Assembly: GCF_000429545.1 (NCBI RefSeq)
Contig: NZ_AUCB01000015.1
Coordinates: forward strand, 1-64,000
DNA length: 64,000 bases
Direction: 5' to 3'
DNA from: Arenibacter certesii DSM 19833
Lineage (GTDB): Bacteria > Bacteroidota > Bacteroidia > Flavobacteriales > Flavobacteriaceae
Shown piece after piece: positions 47,999 to 54,353 of this stretch. Made by a program: the position numbers and the translations under genes. The notes beneath the pieces were generated by a model that was given only the letters and a program-made list of their open reading frames with translations, did no database searches and had not been told where the DNA came from. The stretch's first letter is position 1. Each line of letters starts with the position of its first letter.

Positions 47999-49141
47999 AT
48001 GAGTAGTAAAATTATCTTCATTACCCTTTTATATCTATGCATTGCTCCCCTAAACGCACAGATAAATCCTTCTCATAAATCAGAATCTGATACTCTTAGA
48101 GTAACGCCCATCTCGGTAGATACCATGAGAATAGATACAATGCGTGTAGACACCATAGTTATCCGTACGCTACAAAATAAAATTAAAAACATTTCTAGAG
48201 GCGCTAATTTAACAGGGCCAACTATCAACTTCAATAAAACAAAGGCCCTGGATGAAGAATACCGGCCCTTTAGAATTCCATCCTTTTGGGATAAAGAAAA
48301 TAAATTAAGCATTAATTTAAATGAGGTAGCCTTTGTTAACTGGAATGCAGGGGGAAATAACTCTATCTCTGCACTAGCCAATATAAAATTTCTCCGAAAT
48401 TATAAATTTAGATATGTTCAATGGGAAAATTTATTGGAACTCCGATACGGCCTCAATTCCCAGGAAAATCAAAAGTTGCGAAAAGCGGACGATGCAATTC
48501 GTTTTAGTTCAACATTTGCTTATAGACGAGATACTATTAGCAATTGGTACTATAGTGTTAGAGCTAATTTTAACACCCAATTCTCTAATGGATACAAGTA
48601 CCCTAACAGAGAAGCTCCTGTTTCTAGATTTATGTCCCCTGGGTATGGTTTTATTGGTGCGGGTACCTCGTATATTCCTGAAGGAAAAAAGTTTAACCTC
48701 TATTTATCGCCCTTTACTCAAAAAGTAACTTTTGTATTGGACCAAGATCTAGCAGATAAAGGTGCATTTGGCGTAGAAAAAGCAAAGTACGATGCCAATA
48801 AGAATAAAATTAAGGATGGAGAGAATTCAGTTATAGAATTTGGAGTGTTGATCACCAATACTTGGCAAGGTGAAATTTTTGAGAATGTTGGAGTAAGGCA
48901 TCGTTTAAGCTTGTATTCGGATTATTTAGAAAGCTTTGGAAATATTGATGTGGAATGGGAGCTTAATTTTGCTCTAAAGGTCAATAAATACATAAGTACG
49001 ACCTTTGGGACGCATATACTCTATGACGATGATATTAAGTTTGATCCAATTAAAGCCGATGACGGATCCATTATAAGTGACGGTAGCCCAAAAATTCAGT
49101 TTAAACAACTCTTTGGGGTAGGTGTCAACTATAATTTCTAA
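47999..49141 (+). CDS. DUF3078 family protein
   Basis: The 380-residue protein has a signal peptide (ending LNAQ) and a short stretch of repeated T-M-R-(I/V)-D residues (about 38-52). LSINLNEVAFVNWNAGGNNSISALAN is the core signature of DUF3078, and the rest alternates as in an outer-membrane beta-barrel (WYYSVRANFNTQFSNGY), ending QLFGVGVNYNF with a C-terminal Phe. Function is unknown. It begins one base after the dxs stop, so the two are translationally coupled. Confidence 0.85.
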   Translation: MSSKIIFITLLYLCIAPLNAQINPSHKSESDTLRVTPISVDTMRIDTMRVDTIVIRTLQNKIKNISRGANLTGPTINFNKTKALDEEYRPFRIPSFWDKENKLSINLNEVAFVNWNAGGNNSISALANIKFLRNYKFRYVQWENLLELRYGLNSQENQKLRKADDAIRFSSTFAYRRDTISNWYYSVRANFNTQFSNGYKYPNREAPVSRFMSPGYGFIGAGTSYIPEGKKFNLYLSPFTQKVTFVLDQDLADKGAFGVEKAKYDANKNKIKDGENSVIEFGVLITNTWQGEIFENVGVRHRLSLYSDYLESFGNIDVEWELNFALKVNKYISTTFGTHILYDDDIKFDPIKADDGSIISDGSPKIQFKQLFGVGVNYNF

Positions 49142-49148
49142 TTAACTT

Positions 49149-50492
49149 TTACAGGGACTTACCCATAATTTTATTGTGAATATGTACTGCAGCACTATCC
49201 GATAGACTAGCCACATAACAACAAGCGTTAAGTAAGATAGAATAAATAGACCCATTGGTATCCGTATAGAATTTGGGCAGGGTAGAGATTATTAATTCAT
49301 CATAATTGGAGGCCTTATTATCTTTCTTTCTTATTAAAGCGGTAGTATAGACTTCCAAAATATCCGAGATTATCTTATACCCGGCAATTTCTTTTTCTAT
49401 AACTTCTTGAGATTGATATACGTTCTTAACACTAATCGATAAAATATCTTGGATCTGAGCTTTAAACTTACTTTTCTCCATCAGGGAAACATTAAACTCC
49501 CCTTTTAAAATAGCCTCCTCATTCGCTACAAAAGTTGCTATAGCGTCAGAAATAAGGGTGTTGATAGCTAGGGCTCGTAGATAACTCATCCGGTCCTCCA
49601 TATACACCAACGCGTTATATTTTTTAATATTGATGCTATCCTTTACCAATTTTATTAGGTATTCCAAAGCAAAATCCTCCGATATAAGCCCTAAATTAAT
49701 CCCATCTTCAAAGTCGATTATCGTATAGCAAATATCATCTGCAGCTTCTACCAAAAATGTTAGTGGATGCCTACAATAACCCACATCCGTTCCCTTAGCA
49801 GTAGCAATCAATCCCAATTCATCTGCAATTTCCCTAAAGGAATCCACATCGGATTGAAAGACACCAAATTTCTTATCCGCAATATGTTGCGTAGGACGCT
49901 TAGGAAGAGATTCTTTAGGATACTTCATAAATGCTCCCAAAGTTGCATAACTAAGTCGTAGACCCCTCTCTACACCTTTCTTGGATTCAGTCAATAATTT
50001 ATACCCATTGGCGTTTCCTTCGAAATCTAGGATATCCTGATATTCCTTATTGGTCAACAGATTCTTAAAGCGCTGTCCGTTCCCGTTCTTAAAATACTCA
50101 CCAATAGCTTTTTCGCCACTATGTCCAAATGGAGGGTTGCCTATATCATGTGCCAAAGCCGCCGCAGCTACTATAGCTCCAAAATCATTAAACTTATAGC
50201 CGTGAATTTCACTTAAGTAGGGGTGTTTCTCTAATATCTGCCTGCCAGCAATCCGCCCCAAGCTTCTTCCTACTACGGAAACTTCCAAACTGTGGGTTAA
50301 TCGGGTATGTACAAAATCTGTCTTAGACAAAGGTATAACTTGCGTCTTGTCCTGTAGACTTCTAAAAGCAGCGGAAAAAATAATCCGATCATAATCTACC
50401 TCAAAACCCAAACGGGTTTCATCCTGTTCTTTTCGCAATCTTTTCTTAGCATCTCCAAAGCGTCTTAAGGAGAGTAATTGTTCCCATTCCAT
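49149..50492 (-). CDS. dgt: Deoxyguanosinetriphosphate triphosphohydrolase (dGTPase)
   Basis: The 447-residue HD-domain enzyme cuts dNTPs to deoxynucleoside and triphosphate. RRFGDAKKR, AAFRSLQDKTQV and HTRLTHSLEVSVVGRSLG lead to AALAHDIGNPPFGHSGEKA with the metal-binding HD pair. ICYTIIDFEDG holds the distal Asp. Length lies between E. coli Dgt (505) and the shorter family members. It is convergent with the DUF3078 gene, with stop codons 7 bp apart and no terminator between. Confidence 0.93.
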   Translation of the reverse strand: MEWEQLLSLRRFGDAKKRLRKEQDETRLGFEVDYDRIIFSAAFRSLQDKTQVIPLSKTDFVHTRLTHSLEVSVVGRSLGRIAGRQILEKHPYLSEIHGYKFNDFGAIVAAAALAHDIGNPPFGHSGEKAIGEYFKNGNGQRFKNLLTNKEYQDILDFEGNANGYKLLTESKKGVERGLRLSYATLGAFMKYPKESLPKRPTQHIADKKFGVFQSDVDSFREIADELGLIATAKGTDVGYCRHPLTFLVEAADDICYTIIDFEDGINLGLISEDFALEYLIKLVKDSINIKKYNALVYMEDRMSYLRALAINTLISDAIATFVANEEAILKGEFNVSLMEKSKFKAQIQDILSISVKNVYQSQEVIEKEIAGYKIISDILEVYTTALIRKKDNKASNYDELIISTLPKFYTDTNGSIYSILLNACCYVASLSDSAAVHIHNKIMGKSL

Positions 50493-50612
50493 AGTAACTA
50501 ATTAAAGCTTGCAAGATACATTATTCACGGATGGGCAACCTATAAAATCCATTTCAAAATCCTCATTGTTTGCTTAAGTTTAACGATAATTTAATTCAAT
50601 TTTTACATCCCT

Positions 50613-50696
50613 ATGGCAGCCACATACTACTTTTGCTGCTCTTATATTAAAAACAGTTTCATTGATTTTATTAGTTTTTGTCGACTATTTACGTGA
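50613..50696 (+). CDS. Possible 27-codon leader peptide (uncertain)
   Basis: ATG at 50613 opens a 27-codon frame ending TGA 50694-50696, six bases before an intrinsic terminator. It begins MAATYYFCCSY and is rich in aromatic residues and Cys. It is the only small frame between the start of dgt and the terminator on this strand. The spacing is that of a leader peptide/attenuator, but no ribosome-binding site is clear and chance is quite possible. Confidence 0.2.
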   Translation: MAATYYFCCSYIKNSFIDFISFCRLFT

Positions 50697-50701
50697 AACT
50701 C

Positions 50702-50729
50702 AGCTACCTTTAACCAAGGTAGCTTTTTT
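50702..50729 (+). terminator. Orphan plus-strand terminator upstream of the porin gene
   Basis: A perfect 9-bp stem (AGCTACCTT 50702-50710 with AAGGTAGCT 50716-50724) encloses a 5-nt loop and is followed by a T6 run. The upstream neighbour dgt reads the other way, so no annotated plus-strand gene uses it. Confidence 0.85.
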
Positions 50730-50737
50730 ATTTAAAG

Positions 50738-50745
50738 TAAATTTG
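50738..50745 (+). promoter_or_regulatory. Candidate -7 box of the porin-PiT operon
   Basis: TAAATTTG matches TAnnTTTG, 69 bp before the porin ATG and just after the orphan terminator. No clear TTG is found at the -33 position. Confidence 0.45.
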
Positions 50746-50814
50746 TTTGTTTCTTTACATTAAGTTAACAATCATTTCAGAAATTTGCAGCCGACAAAAA
50801 CTAATACTTTATCT

Positions 50815-52011
50815 ATGAAACAAATAGCGCTATTGCTATTCATTTTCTCCTGCACCCAATCTTTTTCCCAAACCCCAGCCCCAGAATTTGGTAAAGGATT
50901 ATTAAATCTCGTTGGCAAGGATAGCACGTGGACAATGAAACTTGCAACACGAATGCAGTTTTTATCCGCTACAACCTGGGACCAAAACAGTGATGATAAA
51001 TGGGTAGACCCCCACAGCACGGCATTGGTCCGTAGAGCACGATTTAAATTTGATGGATTTGCCTATTCCCAAAAATTAAAATATAAAATAGAACTAGGAT
51101 TATCTAACCGCGATATGTCAGGGGCTTCCGAATACACAAGCAATGCCCCTAGATATATTTTAGATGCGGTGGTTATGTGGAACTTTTACGAAAACTTTGA
51201 ATTATGGATCGGACAGGCTAAATTGCCTGGCAATATGGAGCGCGTTATCTCTTCTGGAAACCTACAACAGGTAGACCGATCAATGCTAAATAGCAAATTT
51301 ACTTTAGACCGTGAGACAGGACTTCAGCTTAGGCACCATTTTTATCTCCACAATAATTTCTTAATTCGTGAAAAGTTTGCCTTATCTCAAGGGGAAGGTA
51401 GAAATGTTACCAACGGAAATATTGGCGGCGCACAGTTTACCGGTAGAATAGAATTACTCCCTTTCGGTGAGTTTTCCGGTGAGGGCGAATATAAGGGAAG
51501 CGACCTAGCACGCGAAGAACAACCTAAACTTATGCTCTCTGCTACCTATGACTATAATAGCAATGCCGTTAAAACCAGGAGCAATCAAGGCACCTACATG
51601 GTAAATGATATAGGCTTTCATAAAACCGACATAAATACTTTATTTTTGGATGCCATGTTTAAATATAGGGGCTTTTCCTTTATGGGCGAATATGCACATA
51701 GAAATGCACAAGATCCTATAGCAAAAAACGCAGATGGCAGCCCTACTGGAGATAAAGTAGCGGTTGGCGATGGCCTAAATTTACAATCAGGCTATCTTTT
51801 AAAGAATAATTGGGAGGTTTCTGGAAGGTATACCCATATTTCCTTAGATGAAGCCATAACTGGCAACCCACCCGAAAATCAATATACTTTAGGTCTTTCT
51901 AAATACATAGTAGGCCACAAATTAAAAATTCAAACGGATCTAAGTTATTTATCCGTTAATGGCGGAACCAACGAATTAATGTATAGATTACAATTCGATA
52001 TTCATTTTTAA
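50815..52011 (+). CDS. Porin, phosphate-selective porin O/P type
   Basis: The 398-residue protein has a signal peptide (MKQIALLLFIFSCTQSFSQ). Features of OprO/OprP-like porins are KLATRMQFLSATTWDQ, RRARFKFDGFAYSQKLKYKIELGLSN, WIGQAKLPGNMERVISSGNLQQVDRS around 135-165 and a C-terminal strand ending LQFDIHF. ATG 50815 is chosen; an in-frame TTG ten codons earlier would precede the signal peptide. It lies 74 bp before the PiT gene, so phosphate or polyphosphate passage is likely, which is inference from family and context. Confidence 0.9.
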   Translation: MKQIALLLFIFSCTQSFSQTPAPEFGKGLLNLVGKDSTWTMKLATRMQFLSATTWDQNSDDKWVDPHSTALVRRARFKFDGFAYSQKLKYKIELGLSNRDMSGASEYTSNAPRYILDAVVMWNFYENFELWIGQAKLPGNMERVISSGNLQQVDRSMLNSKFTLDRETGLQLRHHFYLHNNFLIREKFALSQGEGRNVTNGNIGGAQFTGRIELLPFGEFSGEGEYKGSDLAREEQPKLMLSATYDYNSNAVKTRSNQGTYMVNDIGFHKTDINTLFLDAMFKYRGFSFMGEYAHRNAQDPIAKNADGSPTGDKVAVGDGLNLQSGYLLKNNWEVSGRYTHISLDEAITGNPPENQYTLGLSKYIVGHKLKIQTDLSYLSVNGGTNELMYRLQFDIHF

Positions 52012-52085
52012 GCAATAAGATAACATTAAGATAACATTAGCAACCAACGGACTTCAGATATTTGCAAACATTTTTCTTAGCTACT

Positions 52086-54353
52086 ATGGATAATATATAC
52101 TTTTTAATGATCATTGCCCTAGTCTTTTTGGCAGTAGCCGATTTGATAGTGGGCGTTAGTAACGATGCAGTTAATTTTTTAAACTCAGCTATTGGCTCCA
52201 AAGCCATCTCTTTTAGGACTATTATGGTCGTAGCGAGTCTAGGTATTGCTATAGGTGCCATTTTTTCGAGTGGGATGATGGAAGTAGCCCGAAAAGGGAT
52301 ATTTAATCCCAGTGAGTTTATGTTCAGTGAGATCATGATTATTTTTATGGCGGTAATGATTACCGACATCCTGCTTCTAGACTTCTTTAACACTATAGGA
52401 ATGCCCACCTCTACTACCGTCTCCATTGTATTTGAACTTCTGGGAGCATCAGTAGCAATGGCATTTATAAAAGTAGGGGCAGATTCTGGAAGTTATATAG
52501 ATGTATACAACTATATTAACACCTCCAAAGCGACCGAAATTATCATGGGTATTCTCCTCTCCGTGGTAATCGCATTTTCTGTAGGAGCTTTTGTTCAGTA
52601 CATATCCCGACTATTACTCACCTTCGAATTTAGAAAAAAAGCGAAATGGATGGGAGCACTTTTTAGTGGAATAGCACTTACTGCAATTACCTATTTTATC
52701 TTGATAAAAGGATTAAATGGAGCCTCTTTTGTCAGCGAAAATTTTTTAGCAATTATCCAGGCAAATACATTGGCAATTGTTGTTGGTAGTCTTTTCCTTT
52801 GGTTCCTAATTTCCTATATCATATCAACCGTTTTAAACTACGACATTTACAAGCTTATTATTATTGTAGGAACCTTTGCATTGGCACTTGCATTTGCCGG
52901 TAATGATTTGGTGAACTTTATAGGTGTGCCTATAGCCGCTTGGGAATCTTTTGAGGCCTGGAATAGCTCCGGAGTAGCTGCCAATGAATTTAACATGGGG
53001 ATGCTTTCGGCAAAAGTAGCCACCAATCCATATATCTTGTTTGGGGCGGGAATGATCATGGTGCTTACCTTATGGTTTTCCAAAAAAGCGCGCTACGTAA
53101 CACAGACCGAAATTAACCTATCCCGAGAGGGGGAATCGAAAGAGCGATTTCAACCAAATTTTTTATCCAGGACCATCGTTAGGGTCGCCATGCTCATATC
53201 GTCTGGAACAAACGCATTGATCCCGGCATCCCTTAAGAAAAAAATTGACATTAAATTTGAGAAGCCCGTAATAGCCCTATCAAAAGATAAAACTTTTGAA
53301 ATGCCCGCTTTTGATATTATTAGAGCAGCGGTAAACCTTATGGTAGCCGGGGTATTAATATCTTTAGCTACCTCATACAAACTACCATTATCTACCACCT
53401 ATGTTACCTTCATGGTAGCCATGGGATCTTCTCTTGCAGATAGGGCATGGGGTGCAGAAAGCGCTGTTTACCGAGTTGCCGGAGTATTAAATGTTATTGG
53501 AGGATGGTTTTTCACCGCATTTATGGCATTTACTTCTGCTGCAGTAATTGCATATCTGATCAATATACATGTACCTTCCATGGTTGCAATCCTTCTATTG
53601 GTAGCGGTATTTCTTTTAGTACGTAATTATATTTCCCACAGCAAAAAATCTAAAGAAATTAGTGCAGAAGATAGCTTGAGAAAAGCAGAAAGCAGTTCTA
53701 TACAAGGTGTAATTGAAGAAAGTGCCAACAACATTTCTAACGTGGCCAAAAGAAGCAACAAGATATACACTAACACCATAAACGGATTGGCAAAACAAGA
53801 TTTGGACATGCTTAAGAAAAATAAAAAGCAAGTGACAAAACTTTCTGCCGAGGTAGATGATCTTAGAGATCATATCTTTTTCTTCATTAAAAACCTGGAC
53901 GAAGCCAGTGTCGGGGCAAGTAATTTCTACATTAATATCCTAGGATATTTGCAGGATATGGCTCAATCACTAGAGTATTTATCCAAAATAAGTCACAAGC
54001 ACATTAATAATAATCATAAGAAATTAAAATACAATCAAATAAAAGAGATCAAGGAAATAGATCAAAAGCTAGATCTGTTACTTAGCGAGACCAAGGAAGC
54101 TTTCGAGACCCGTAATTTCACCAAAATAGGGACTATACTAGGCAGTAAACAAACTTTGCTCGATATGGTCTCCCAGAAAATTGAAAAACAGATTGAACGG
54201 ACCCGTACAGAGGAATCCAGTCCAAAGAATACTACCCTGTATTTCACCATTCTATTGGAAACTAAAGATTTTATAAACGCCACTATGAATCTATTGGAAC
54301 TATACTATCAAGAACATGATAGTACGGTAAAACCTGCCAAGGTAGAAGTGTAG
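52086..54353 (+). CDS. Inorganic phosphate transporter PiT with fused PhoU-like domain
   Basis: The 755-residue protein begins MDNIYFLMIIALVFLAVAD (ATG 52086; an in-frame TTG eight codons earlier is less likely). The PiT signatures are GVSNDAVNFLNSAIGSKA, GMPTSTTVSIVFELLGA and AFAGNDLVNFIGVP. About 12 membrane helices end near residue 520 (VAILLLVAVFLLVRNYI). The last 230 residues are soluble, charged and helical, like PhoU/DUF47 proteins, which usually are separate genes beside PiT. The fusion suggests built-in regulation of phosphate uptake. Confidence 0.9.
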   Translation: MDNIYFLMIIALVFLAVADLIVGVSNDAVNFLNSAIGSKAISFRTIMVVASLGIAIGAIFSSGMMEVARKGIFNPSEFMFSEIMIIFMAVMITDILLLDFFNTIGMPTSTTVSIVFELLGASVAMAFIKVGADSGSYIDVYNYINTSKATEIIMGILLSVVIAFSVGAFVQYISRLLLTFEFRKKAKWMGALFSGIALTAITYFILIKGLNGASFVSENFLAIIQANTLAIVVGSLFLWFLISYIISTVLNYDIYKLIIIVGTFALALAFAGNDLVNFIGVPIAAWESFEAWNSSGVAANEFNMGMLSAKVATNPYILFGAGMIMVLTLWFSKKARYVTQTEINLSREGESKERFQPNFLSRTIVRVAMLISSGTNALIPASLKKKIDIKFEKPVIALSKDKTFEMPAFDIIRAAVNLMVAGVLISLATSYKLPLSTTYVTFMVAMGSSLADRAWGAESAVYRVAGVLNVIGGWFFTAFMAFTSAAVIAYLINIHVPSMVAILLLVAVFLLVRNYISHSKKSKEISAEDSLRKAESSSIQGVIEESANNISNVAKRSNKIYTNTINGLAKQDLDMLKKNKKQVTKLSAEVDDLRDHIFFFIKNLDEASVGASNFYINILGYLQDMAQSLEYLSKISHKHINNNHKKLKYNQIKEIKEIDQKLDLLLSETKEAFETRNFTKIGTILGSKQTLLDMVSQKIEKQIERTRTEESSPKNTTLYFTILLETKDFINATMNLLELYYQEHDSTVKPAKVEV

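Follow-up and report, generated by a model that had tools for sequence, protein, structure and literature searches.

In enterobacteria the small RNAs (sRNAs) MicF, MicC, MicA and RybB cover the translation start of porin mRNAs, and to our knowledge none of them is located immediately before a sole target. Toxin control offers, in the IstR-1/tisB and RalA/ralR pairs, familiar examples of an sRNA that neighbours its target gene and shares extended complementarity with it. FasX pairs with the outermost 5' end of the streptokinase mRNA, keeps the ribosome site clear and makes the message more stable. We know of few sRNA/target pairs in the Flavobacteriaceae, a family of a phylum that lacks classical Shine-Dalgarno initiation. 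Described in this phylum are FopS and GibS of Bacteroides thetaiotaomicron (PMC11697453), which have intrinsic terminators, base-pair around the start of mRNAs for outer-membrane transporters and repress their translation. FopS, according to the same source, exists in 14 copies, carries its seed in a single-stranded 5' stretch and has SusC mRNAs as its many targets; it pairs near the start codon of a SusC transporter mRNA, blocking translation. Rfp18 of Flavobacterium psychrophilum is described in PMC9723704 as a conserved sRNA with predicted protease targets.

The window, as we call the whole stretch of 64,000 nucleotides that was analysed, comes from Arenibacter certesii and holds, ahead of a porin gene and a phosphate transporter gene, what looks from its sequence like a real but undescribed small RNA (Table 1). 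Our preferred explanation, to which we give a probability of roughly 0.78, is that a dedicated trans-acting sRNA encoded at 50640-50729 blocks translation of the phosphate-uptake porin; we infer its transcription, the repression and the control by PhoB. Rfam 15 returned no family at the gathering cut-off for the window and seven homologous loci, the best sub-threshold match in 50560-50860 being RnaG (18.6 against a cut-off of 153), and in the open-licence literature we found no description of such an sRNA or of any phosphate-uptake sRNA/target pair. Among the best 80 of 164 loci, the closest named porin is that of Arenibacter latericius (89% identical). In a search over 13 genomes a PF12849 (PstS-type) match was absent from the A. 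certesii genome at 1e-8, and the PiT transporter may therefore be the main phosphate importer of this organism.

Table 1. Features of the locus, in positions of the window; RNA and promoter features are predictions
Feature	Position	Strand	Basis
HD-domain gene directly upstream	49149-50492	-	
11-bp-phased repeats TTTAACGATAA TTTAATTCAAT TTTTACATCCC upstream of the sRNA promoter, putative PhoB/OmpR-type site	50579-50611	+	sequence, TTAA spacing
Predicted sRNA -7 box TACTTTTG	50628-50635	+	sequence, TAnnTTTG consensus
Predicted small RNA, about 90 nt	50640-50729	+	model R1, fold z-score, covarying helices
Outer stem (50655-50662 with 50693-50700) enclosing the seed hairpin (50672-50676 with 50683-50687, loop 50677-50682)	50655-50700	+	fold, covarying helices
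Second antisense arm, 10/11 complementary to 50811-50821, crossing the porin ATG	50656-50666	+	sequence, duplex
Antisense seed TATTAGTTTTTGTCG, exact complement of 50792-50806	50669-50683	+	sequence
Intrinsic terminator of the sRNA	50702-50729	+	stem 50702-50724, 9 pairs, then T run
11-bp repeats of the porin promoter, TTTACATTAAG TTAACAATCAT	50754-50775	+	sequence, spacing counts
Predicted porin -7 box GAAATTTG; predicted +1 at 50792-50793	50780-50787	+	sequence, promoter alignment
Site paired by the sRNA, at the very start of the predicted porin mRNA	50792-50806	+	complementarity, covariation
Target gene, porin of the Porin_O_P family (PF07396)	50815-52011	+	ORF list, Pfam match
11-bp repeats ahead of the PiT gene	52020-52038	+	sequence
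PiT-type (PHO4/PiT) phosphate transporter (PF01384), no target site in leader	52089-54353	+	

The predicted small RNA and its promoters

The preliminary description had pointed to a strong plus-strand terminator with no plus-strand gene before it, and so it proved: the stem is present, the upstream neighbour lies on the minus strand, and the nearest large plus-strand ORF upstream (counting ORFs of at least 80 aa) ends at 49141. A single such site is not by itself above chance, with one terminator-like site found in 2 kb against a shuffle mean of 1.6; its weight comes from its conservation across homologs, and all 7 counted pairs of the helix changed on both sides in some sequence.

The fold was studied with R1, a covariance model built with a hand-set structure from 57 aligned sequences, the window's among them; RNAalifold, unaided, recovered only the seed hairpin and the terminator from the 57-sequence alignment. 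R1 matches the window, one of its own 57 sequences, at 50633-50729 with 82.2 bits. Covariation was scored over the 93 of 99 source sequences that matched R1 at 1e-5, in an alignment that was fitted to the R1 structure and included some rows that had also built R1. Across these 93 matches 89.7% of cells in the whole fold are paired and 317 cells changed on both sides, against a shuffled mean of 91.5, and the fold covariation is 0.487 compared with 0.214 when shuffled and at most 0.151 when slid. Helix by helix, 88.5% of cells are paired in the 5' hairpin, 77.5% in the outer stem, 94.1% in the seed hairpin and 98.2% in the terminator. One of four pairs of the seed hairpin changed on both sides, its own covariation being weak because its sequence hardly varies. 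The window's RNA has a fold z-score of -3.57 and the loop UUUGUC in its seed hairpin; one of four homologs folded alongside it (L036) prefers another fold. The window's sRNA has a degenerate version of the 5' hairpin. Elsewhere the 5' end of the sRNA, GTCTTAAGAC (for example at L013:2794-2803), varies as a covarying mini-hairpin whose loop is mostly UUAA.

On comparative grounds, the RNA element and its fold can be regarded as established, and we infer a discrete transcript from a promoter of its own. Conservation extends to the region upstream of the sRNA as well as to its terminator. The earlier proposal of an sRNA that pairs with the porin mRNA is upheld by the covarying fold, the covarying pairing and the separated loci described below, except in its start, which had been put at 50590 and probably lies near 50640. 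A 27-codon frame at 50613-50696, proposed as a possible addition of attenuation, is present in the window but has no counterpart resembling it in the five relatives checked, and the proposal is not supported.

In PMC9723704 the main -7 box of Flavobacterium, TAnnTTTG, is placed at -12 to -5. The sRNA -7 box is loose among homologs, only 51 of which are alignable on it. For the porin, 179 aligned promoters give the consensus TTTGCAGCGACA, and their arrangement TTTG-CAGC-GACA places the predicted +1 at the G of GACA or at the preceding C, with a predicted leader of median length 20 nt (n = 159 loci) and of 22 nt in the window. The preliminary description had placed a -7 box at 50738; TAAATTTG is indeed present there, but the conserved porin promoter has its TTTG at 50784-50787, next to the target.

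Direct repeats with an 11-bp period lie upstream of the -7 box, with spacings of 11 at the sRNA promoter and of 11 and 22 at the porin promoter. Among 166 sRNA promoters 11 is the commonest TTAA spacing (141; next 69), and when TTA[AC] is counted a spacing of 23 comes close to one of 11 (182 against 190); in porin promoters a TTAA spacing of 22 is commoner than 11 (99 and 63), and many PiT promoters have 11-bp-period repeats as well. Direct repeats of this period are what we take to be the known PhoB form, and since they stand at both promoters it is probable that one PhoB-like phosphate response regulator controls sRNA and porin alike. The repeat consensus is not enriched in the A. certesii genome (223 sites with at most 3 mismatches against 278 in the reversed control), and by eye none of 11 other two-mismatch repeat sites in that genome precedes a phosphate gene. 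In Flavobacterium johnsoniae an OprP-type gene of the phoBR operon, which may not be the same porin, is given as not significantly changed on phosphate depletion in PMC8115612.

Pairing with the first bases of the predicted porin mRNA

The 15-nt complementarity reported earlier between 50669-50683 and 50792-50806 is exact and turns out to be stronger than claimed: it extends to 17 of 18 positions (50669-50686 with 50789-50806), and the second arm (50656-50666 with 50811-50821, 10 of 11), shifted by two bases, reaches the porin ATG. For comparison across relatives, 183 sRNA/target pairs (160 distinct) were chosen by fuzzy patterns, which in R1-match loci allowed at most 4 mismatches; these patterns favour the consensus, 11 of the 160 pairs come from loci without a close porin and include some chance matches, which lowers the pairing figures, and L007 and L008 carry both arms yet were filtered out of the 160-pair set. 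An exact complementary run of at least 12 nt occurs in 133 of the 183 pairs, compared with none of 504 random windows of the same loci. Duplex energy is -26.5 kcal/mol for cognate and -23.3 for non-cognate combinations, against -12.5 for random windows, and the cognate duplex is better than the non-cognate in 128 of 167 cases.

Over the 160 distinct pairs the paired fraction is 15-34% at target positions -6 to -2, 88% at -1 and 91-100% from 0 to 11. The complementarity ends at the predicted transcript end, which is the pattern expected from RNA pairing. At positions 3, 10, 12 and 13 pairing is more frequent than in any of 200 shuffles; at positions 14-21 it is not. The pairing core is mostly invariant across these pairs; invariance alone could have other causes, and it is the changes that are informative. 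Compensated states are found at target positions 3, 10 and 12 in 3, 9 and 19 of the 160 pairs: in 3 pairs GACAAAAA becomes GACTAAAA together with a change from TTTTTGTC to TTTTAGTC, in 9 pairs CTAA becomes CTTA together with TTAG becoming TAAG, and in 19 pairs there is a swap at position 12. On a tree of the 160 downstream translations (a quick FastTree, some of the translations not homologous) these states, counted there as 3, 9 and 20, need 2, 6 and 9 changes. Covariation of the region in relatives, which had been proposed as a check, is thus found in the sRNA helices and in the sRNA/target pairing, and by comparison the pairing can be taken as established, compensatory changes included.

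Support for the second arm comes from single lineages only. Pairing of the start codon is equally common in cognate duplexes (141 of 159) and non-cognate ones (86%), and exact runs of 17-26 nt are lineage-specific (26 nt in L062, 21 nt in L070/L167 and in L173). At L216/L062 (G122) the complementarity continues past the predicted +1 into the porin promoter, an exception to the +1 limit; the same genome also holds a second, more standard copy of the sRNA (L160, L305).

Distribution, phosphate genes and candidate further targets

Loss of the complementarity in relatives that keep the flanking genes had been named as evidence that would tell against the pairing, and the pair proves to be retained: among the best 80 of 164 loci from bacterial genomes, sRNA and target lie upstream of 62 of the 80 named porin homologs, as they do in the window. 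What is shared is TATTAGTTTTTGTCGACTA or a near form with its flanking stem and terminator, and GACAAAAACTAA or a near form ahead of the porin start. In the other 18 named loci the pair was not found together nearby, and about 11 of the 80 keep neither arm. A model search of the genomes of these 18 found R1 in three at E below 1e-7 (L026, L068, L076) and as a doubtful fourth match at 0.08 (L021), R1 being absent from the remaining 14, several of which are fragmented MAGs. At L076 the sRNA and porin pieces are both at contig ends, so that the break is probably an assembly gap; at L026 the sRNA is near the end of another contig, with none in the 3 kb upstream of the porin, and this is a possible further case of separation. 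Five MAGs (L006, L011, L044, L048, L064) keep all or part of the target, and the sRNA was not found in their genomes.

In a sample spread evenly over the genera of the Flavobacteriaceae, R1 matched 134 of 299 genomes at an E value of at most 0.01, with a single match in the A. certesii genome; the matching genomes cover 112 of 236 genera. The sRNA is present, then, in about half of the sampled genera of the family, and patchily, many listed family genomes in the wider samples having no R1. The searches at all three levels were run with stricter filters, which lose weak matches; the wider samples gave R1 in 12 of 296 genomes of the order at 0.001, 10 of the 12 from the same family, and in 6 of 395 genomes of the phylum, all from the same family. 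Three model matches (L212-L214) were rejected as false positives, with the terminator present and the seed absent, and because L214 is the only match in G049 this genome should not count among the 134. A close porin lies on the same strand within 300 nt downstream, at a median distance of 92 nt, in 109 of 130 fetched R1-match loci, a set that leaves out some listed weak matches and all unlisted ones and in which L097 (wrong orientation) and L100 (odd distance) count as misses. Some genomes occur in both the named and the other set, L070 and L167 for example being a single locus, and removal was limited to identical rows. One R1 match at 7.9e-9 (G560:C16:4526-4616) falls in a 64% complete genome from another family of the order, where it may reflect transfer or misbinning. 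G141 has at L122 a second copy of the sRNA, the target and the porin start; its reading frame is cut off at about 32 codons, and the intact copy (L126) lies some 117 kb away.

The best available link of the module to phosphate appears to be the outer-membrane genes that lie beside phosphate transporters. Among the R1-match loci without a homolog of the window porin, three carry a more distant Porin_O_P protein (L094, L125, L215) and three another protein with weak porin and outer-membrane-barrel matches at best (L177 in G269, L161 in G047, which is of the same genus, and L176 in G151). The L161 and L176 proteins are related to that of L177 (54% and 67% identity), and the L177-type protein is hardly related to the window porin (one comparison, E 0.002). 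It is followed by a PstS gene in L177 and L161 (TIGR02136, 2.2e-85 and 1.6e-95) and by a PiT homolog in L176 (66% identity). Duplexes at these six loci range from -21.7 to -28.4 kcal/mol, and all except that of L215 lie below all 200 shuffled targets; at L161 the target stands ahead of a short ORF and the outer-membrane gene starts some 230 nt further on. Given that targets also precede outer-membrane genes hardly related to the window porin, beside PstS or PiT, the module stays with such genes whatever their family. The target-bearing outer-membrane protein of L177:1389-3402, L161 (reverse strand) and L176:1343-2365 has no confident Pfam family and may represent another type of phosphate porin, one not described before.

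It is conceivable, though somewhat unlikely in our judgement, that the sRNA acts on several mRNAs, among which the porin's is merely the neighbour with the longest match, a reading compatible with the preferred one. In its favour, the sRNA is kept in three near-complete genomes without a close porin (G107, G121 and G014; L300, L299 and L301), where it lies with an intact seed directly before PiT; their best porin identities are 30%, 41% and 38%, the target site is absent before these distant porins, and the combination suggests either recent porin loss or another target. Candidate sites were inspected in A. certesii (6 of 22 non-porin sites), G014 (2 of 9), G121 (2 of 18) and G107 (0 of 18), and in four of the 10 stretches a longer ORF has its start codon no more than 100 nt away (ATG at 31 nt in L346, 54 in L337, 87 in L344 and 97 in L345). 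L346, one of the six inspected in A. certesii, precedes an ORF of 237 aa or longer and also speaks for further targets; the sites of L337, L344 and L345 lie, by eye, inside a reading frame. Against several targets, however, no second conserved target was found among the 6 of 22 non-porin sites inspected, and the promoter-anchored pattern is not enriched in the A. certesii genome, with 23 sites compared to 29 in the reversed control.

The predicted mRNA for a lipoprotein-like protein at L346 (contig C29 of A. certesii) would begin CGACAAAAA, in which 9 nt are complementary to the seed. PiT was tried as a second target and rejected, GACAAAAACT occurring with at most one mismatch in 0 of 73 PiT leaders (95 nt before the start).

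Proposed mode of action and known systems

In the mechanism that we favour, a separate promoter ahead of the porin gene would give rise to an sRNA of about 90 nt, whose outer stem would display a small hairpin holding the seed in the loop UUUGUC. This seed would meet the single-stranded first bases of the porin mRNA; in the window the first 25 bases of the target are unpaired in the fold, so that the sRNA loop could make its first contact at the 5' end and pairing could then proceed in the direction of the start codon, the helix growing to about 15 bp and, in some lineages, on to the start codon itself. With a whole 5' leader of only about 20 nt, the resulting duplex would cover the ribosome loading place, the porin would be translated less and its mRNA would probably decay faster. 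Such a brake on the porin would leave the neighbouring PiT gene untouched, as this gene lacks a target site and is preceded by a promoter-like region of its own. Repression as the sign of regulation is argued by analogy, the FopS precedent in Bacteroides making reduced porin translation the likeliest outcome.

It is also imaginable that the same sRNA protects the porin mRNA by sealing its 5' end, raising porin output, and the paired block does begin at the predicted +1, where such sealing acts, while the sRNA and porin promoters both bear 11-bp-period repeats. FasX-streptokinase provides a precedent. We consider this distinctly unlikely, however: the best duplex pairs on average 17.7 bases of a leader of about 20 nt, which should hinder ribosome loading, and the free leader, as folded in the window, has no structure for an sRNA to open.

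Three genomes bear on whether the two arms act within one molecule. About 3.1-3.3 kb separate the sRNA from the downstream porin in G078, G101 and Lutibacter oceani (L295/L068). The interval holds two genes on the opposite strand, one for a sulfate permease (PF00916, STAS), the other for a carbonic anhydrase (PF00484), and the duplexes (-23.3, -23.2 and -20.2 kcal/mol, respectively) are each below all 200 shuffled targets. To carry both arms in an orientation that allows pairing, one transcript would need to cross two genes backwards, and the separated loci therefore support a diffusible RNA; by comparison, sRNA and target can be encoded apart. The preliminary description had offered as an alternative a long read-through leader in which the arms fold together and hide the porin start, a shorter transcript leaving it free. 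The arms are indeed complementary, on the same strand and adjacent in 109 of 130 R1-match loci, but a leader of this kind is very improbable, being contradicted by the conserved terminator, by the porin's own conserved promoter directly ahead of the target and by the three genomes, in which regulatory arm and target do not share a transcript. Leader folding and the box at 50738 were set aside together, given the conserved promoter adjoining the target and the separated loci. L297, L298 and L295/L068 share this intervening pair of sulfate permease and carbonic anhydrase genes.

That the arms are instead oppositely oriented DNA sites of one regulator, as the very high conservation of GACAAAAACTAA in both might suggest, is scarcely credible, since they change together so that pairing survives, show lineage-specific exact runs of 17-26 nt, stop matching at the predicted +1 and, on the sRNA side, lie inside a covarying RNA fold.

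Taking the dedicated trans-acting sRNA further, we would tentatively picture a widely kept RNA brake on outer-membrane phosphate entry. One regulator would turn on both porin and sRNA, the start-site-anchored duplex would mask the ribosome site and set the porin-to-transporter ratio, and the module would follow the phosphate-porin slot across porin families and across Pst and PiT, acting on other targets after porin loss. In a phylum that lacks classical Shine-Dalgarno initiation, the locus offers an example of sRNA control open to direct testing, and the sRNA/target set is a natural record of their coevolution.

FopS and GibS share with this sRNA the phylum, a terminator and an outer-membrane target, repression being presumed here. 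FopS is multicopy, whereas R1 has one match in the A. certesii genome; the seed here lies in a nested hairpin loop, and there is one clear target next door, at the first bases of its mRNA. By this description the sRNA looks like a family separate from FopS. Like MicF, MicC, MicA and RybB it would cover a porin translation start, although, in contrast to them, no Rfam family reaches its cut-off for the sRNA. It resembles IstR-1/tisB and RalA/ralR in adjoining its target with long complementarity, and differs from them in that the target is a nutrient porin, on the same strand and without overlap; on 50560-50860 RalA reaches 11 bits, its cut-off being 170. In targeting the outermost 5' end of an mRNA it recalls FasX, but the leader here is about 20 nt and nearly all paired. 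With Rfp18 it has in common conservation in the Flavobacteriaceae, the predicted Rfp18 targets being different ones (proteases). Judged by comparison, this is a new sRNA family of a familiar sort, a base-pairing sRNA on an outer-membrane porin, whose uncommon traits appear to be its neighbouring target, the start-site-anchored match, the clear coevolution of the two partners and the way in which it follows the phosphate-porin slot.
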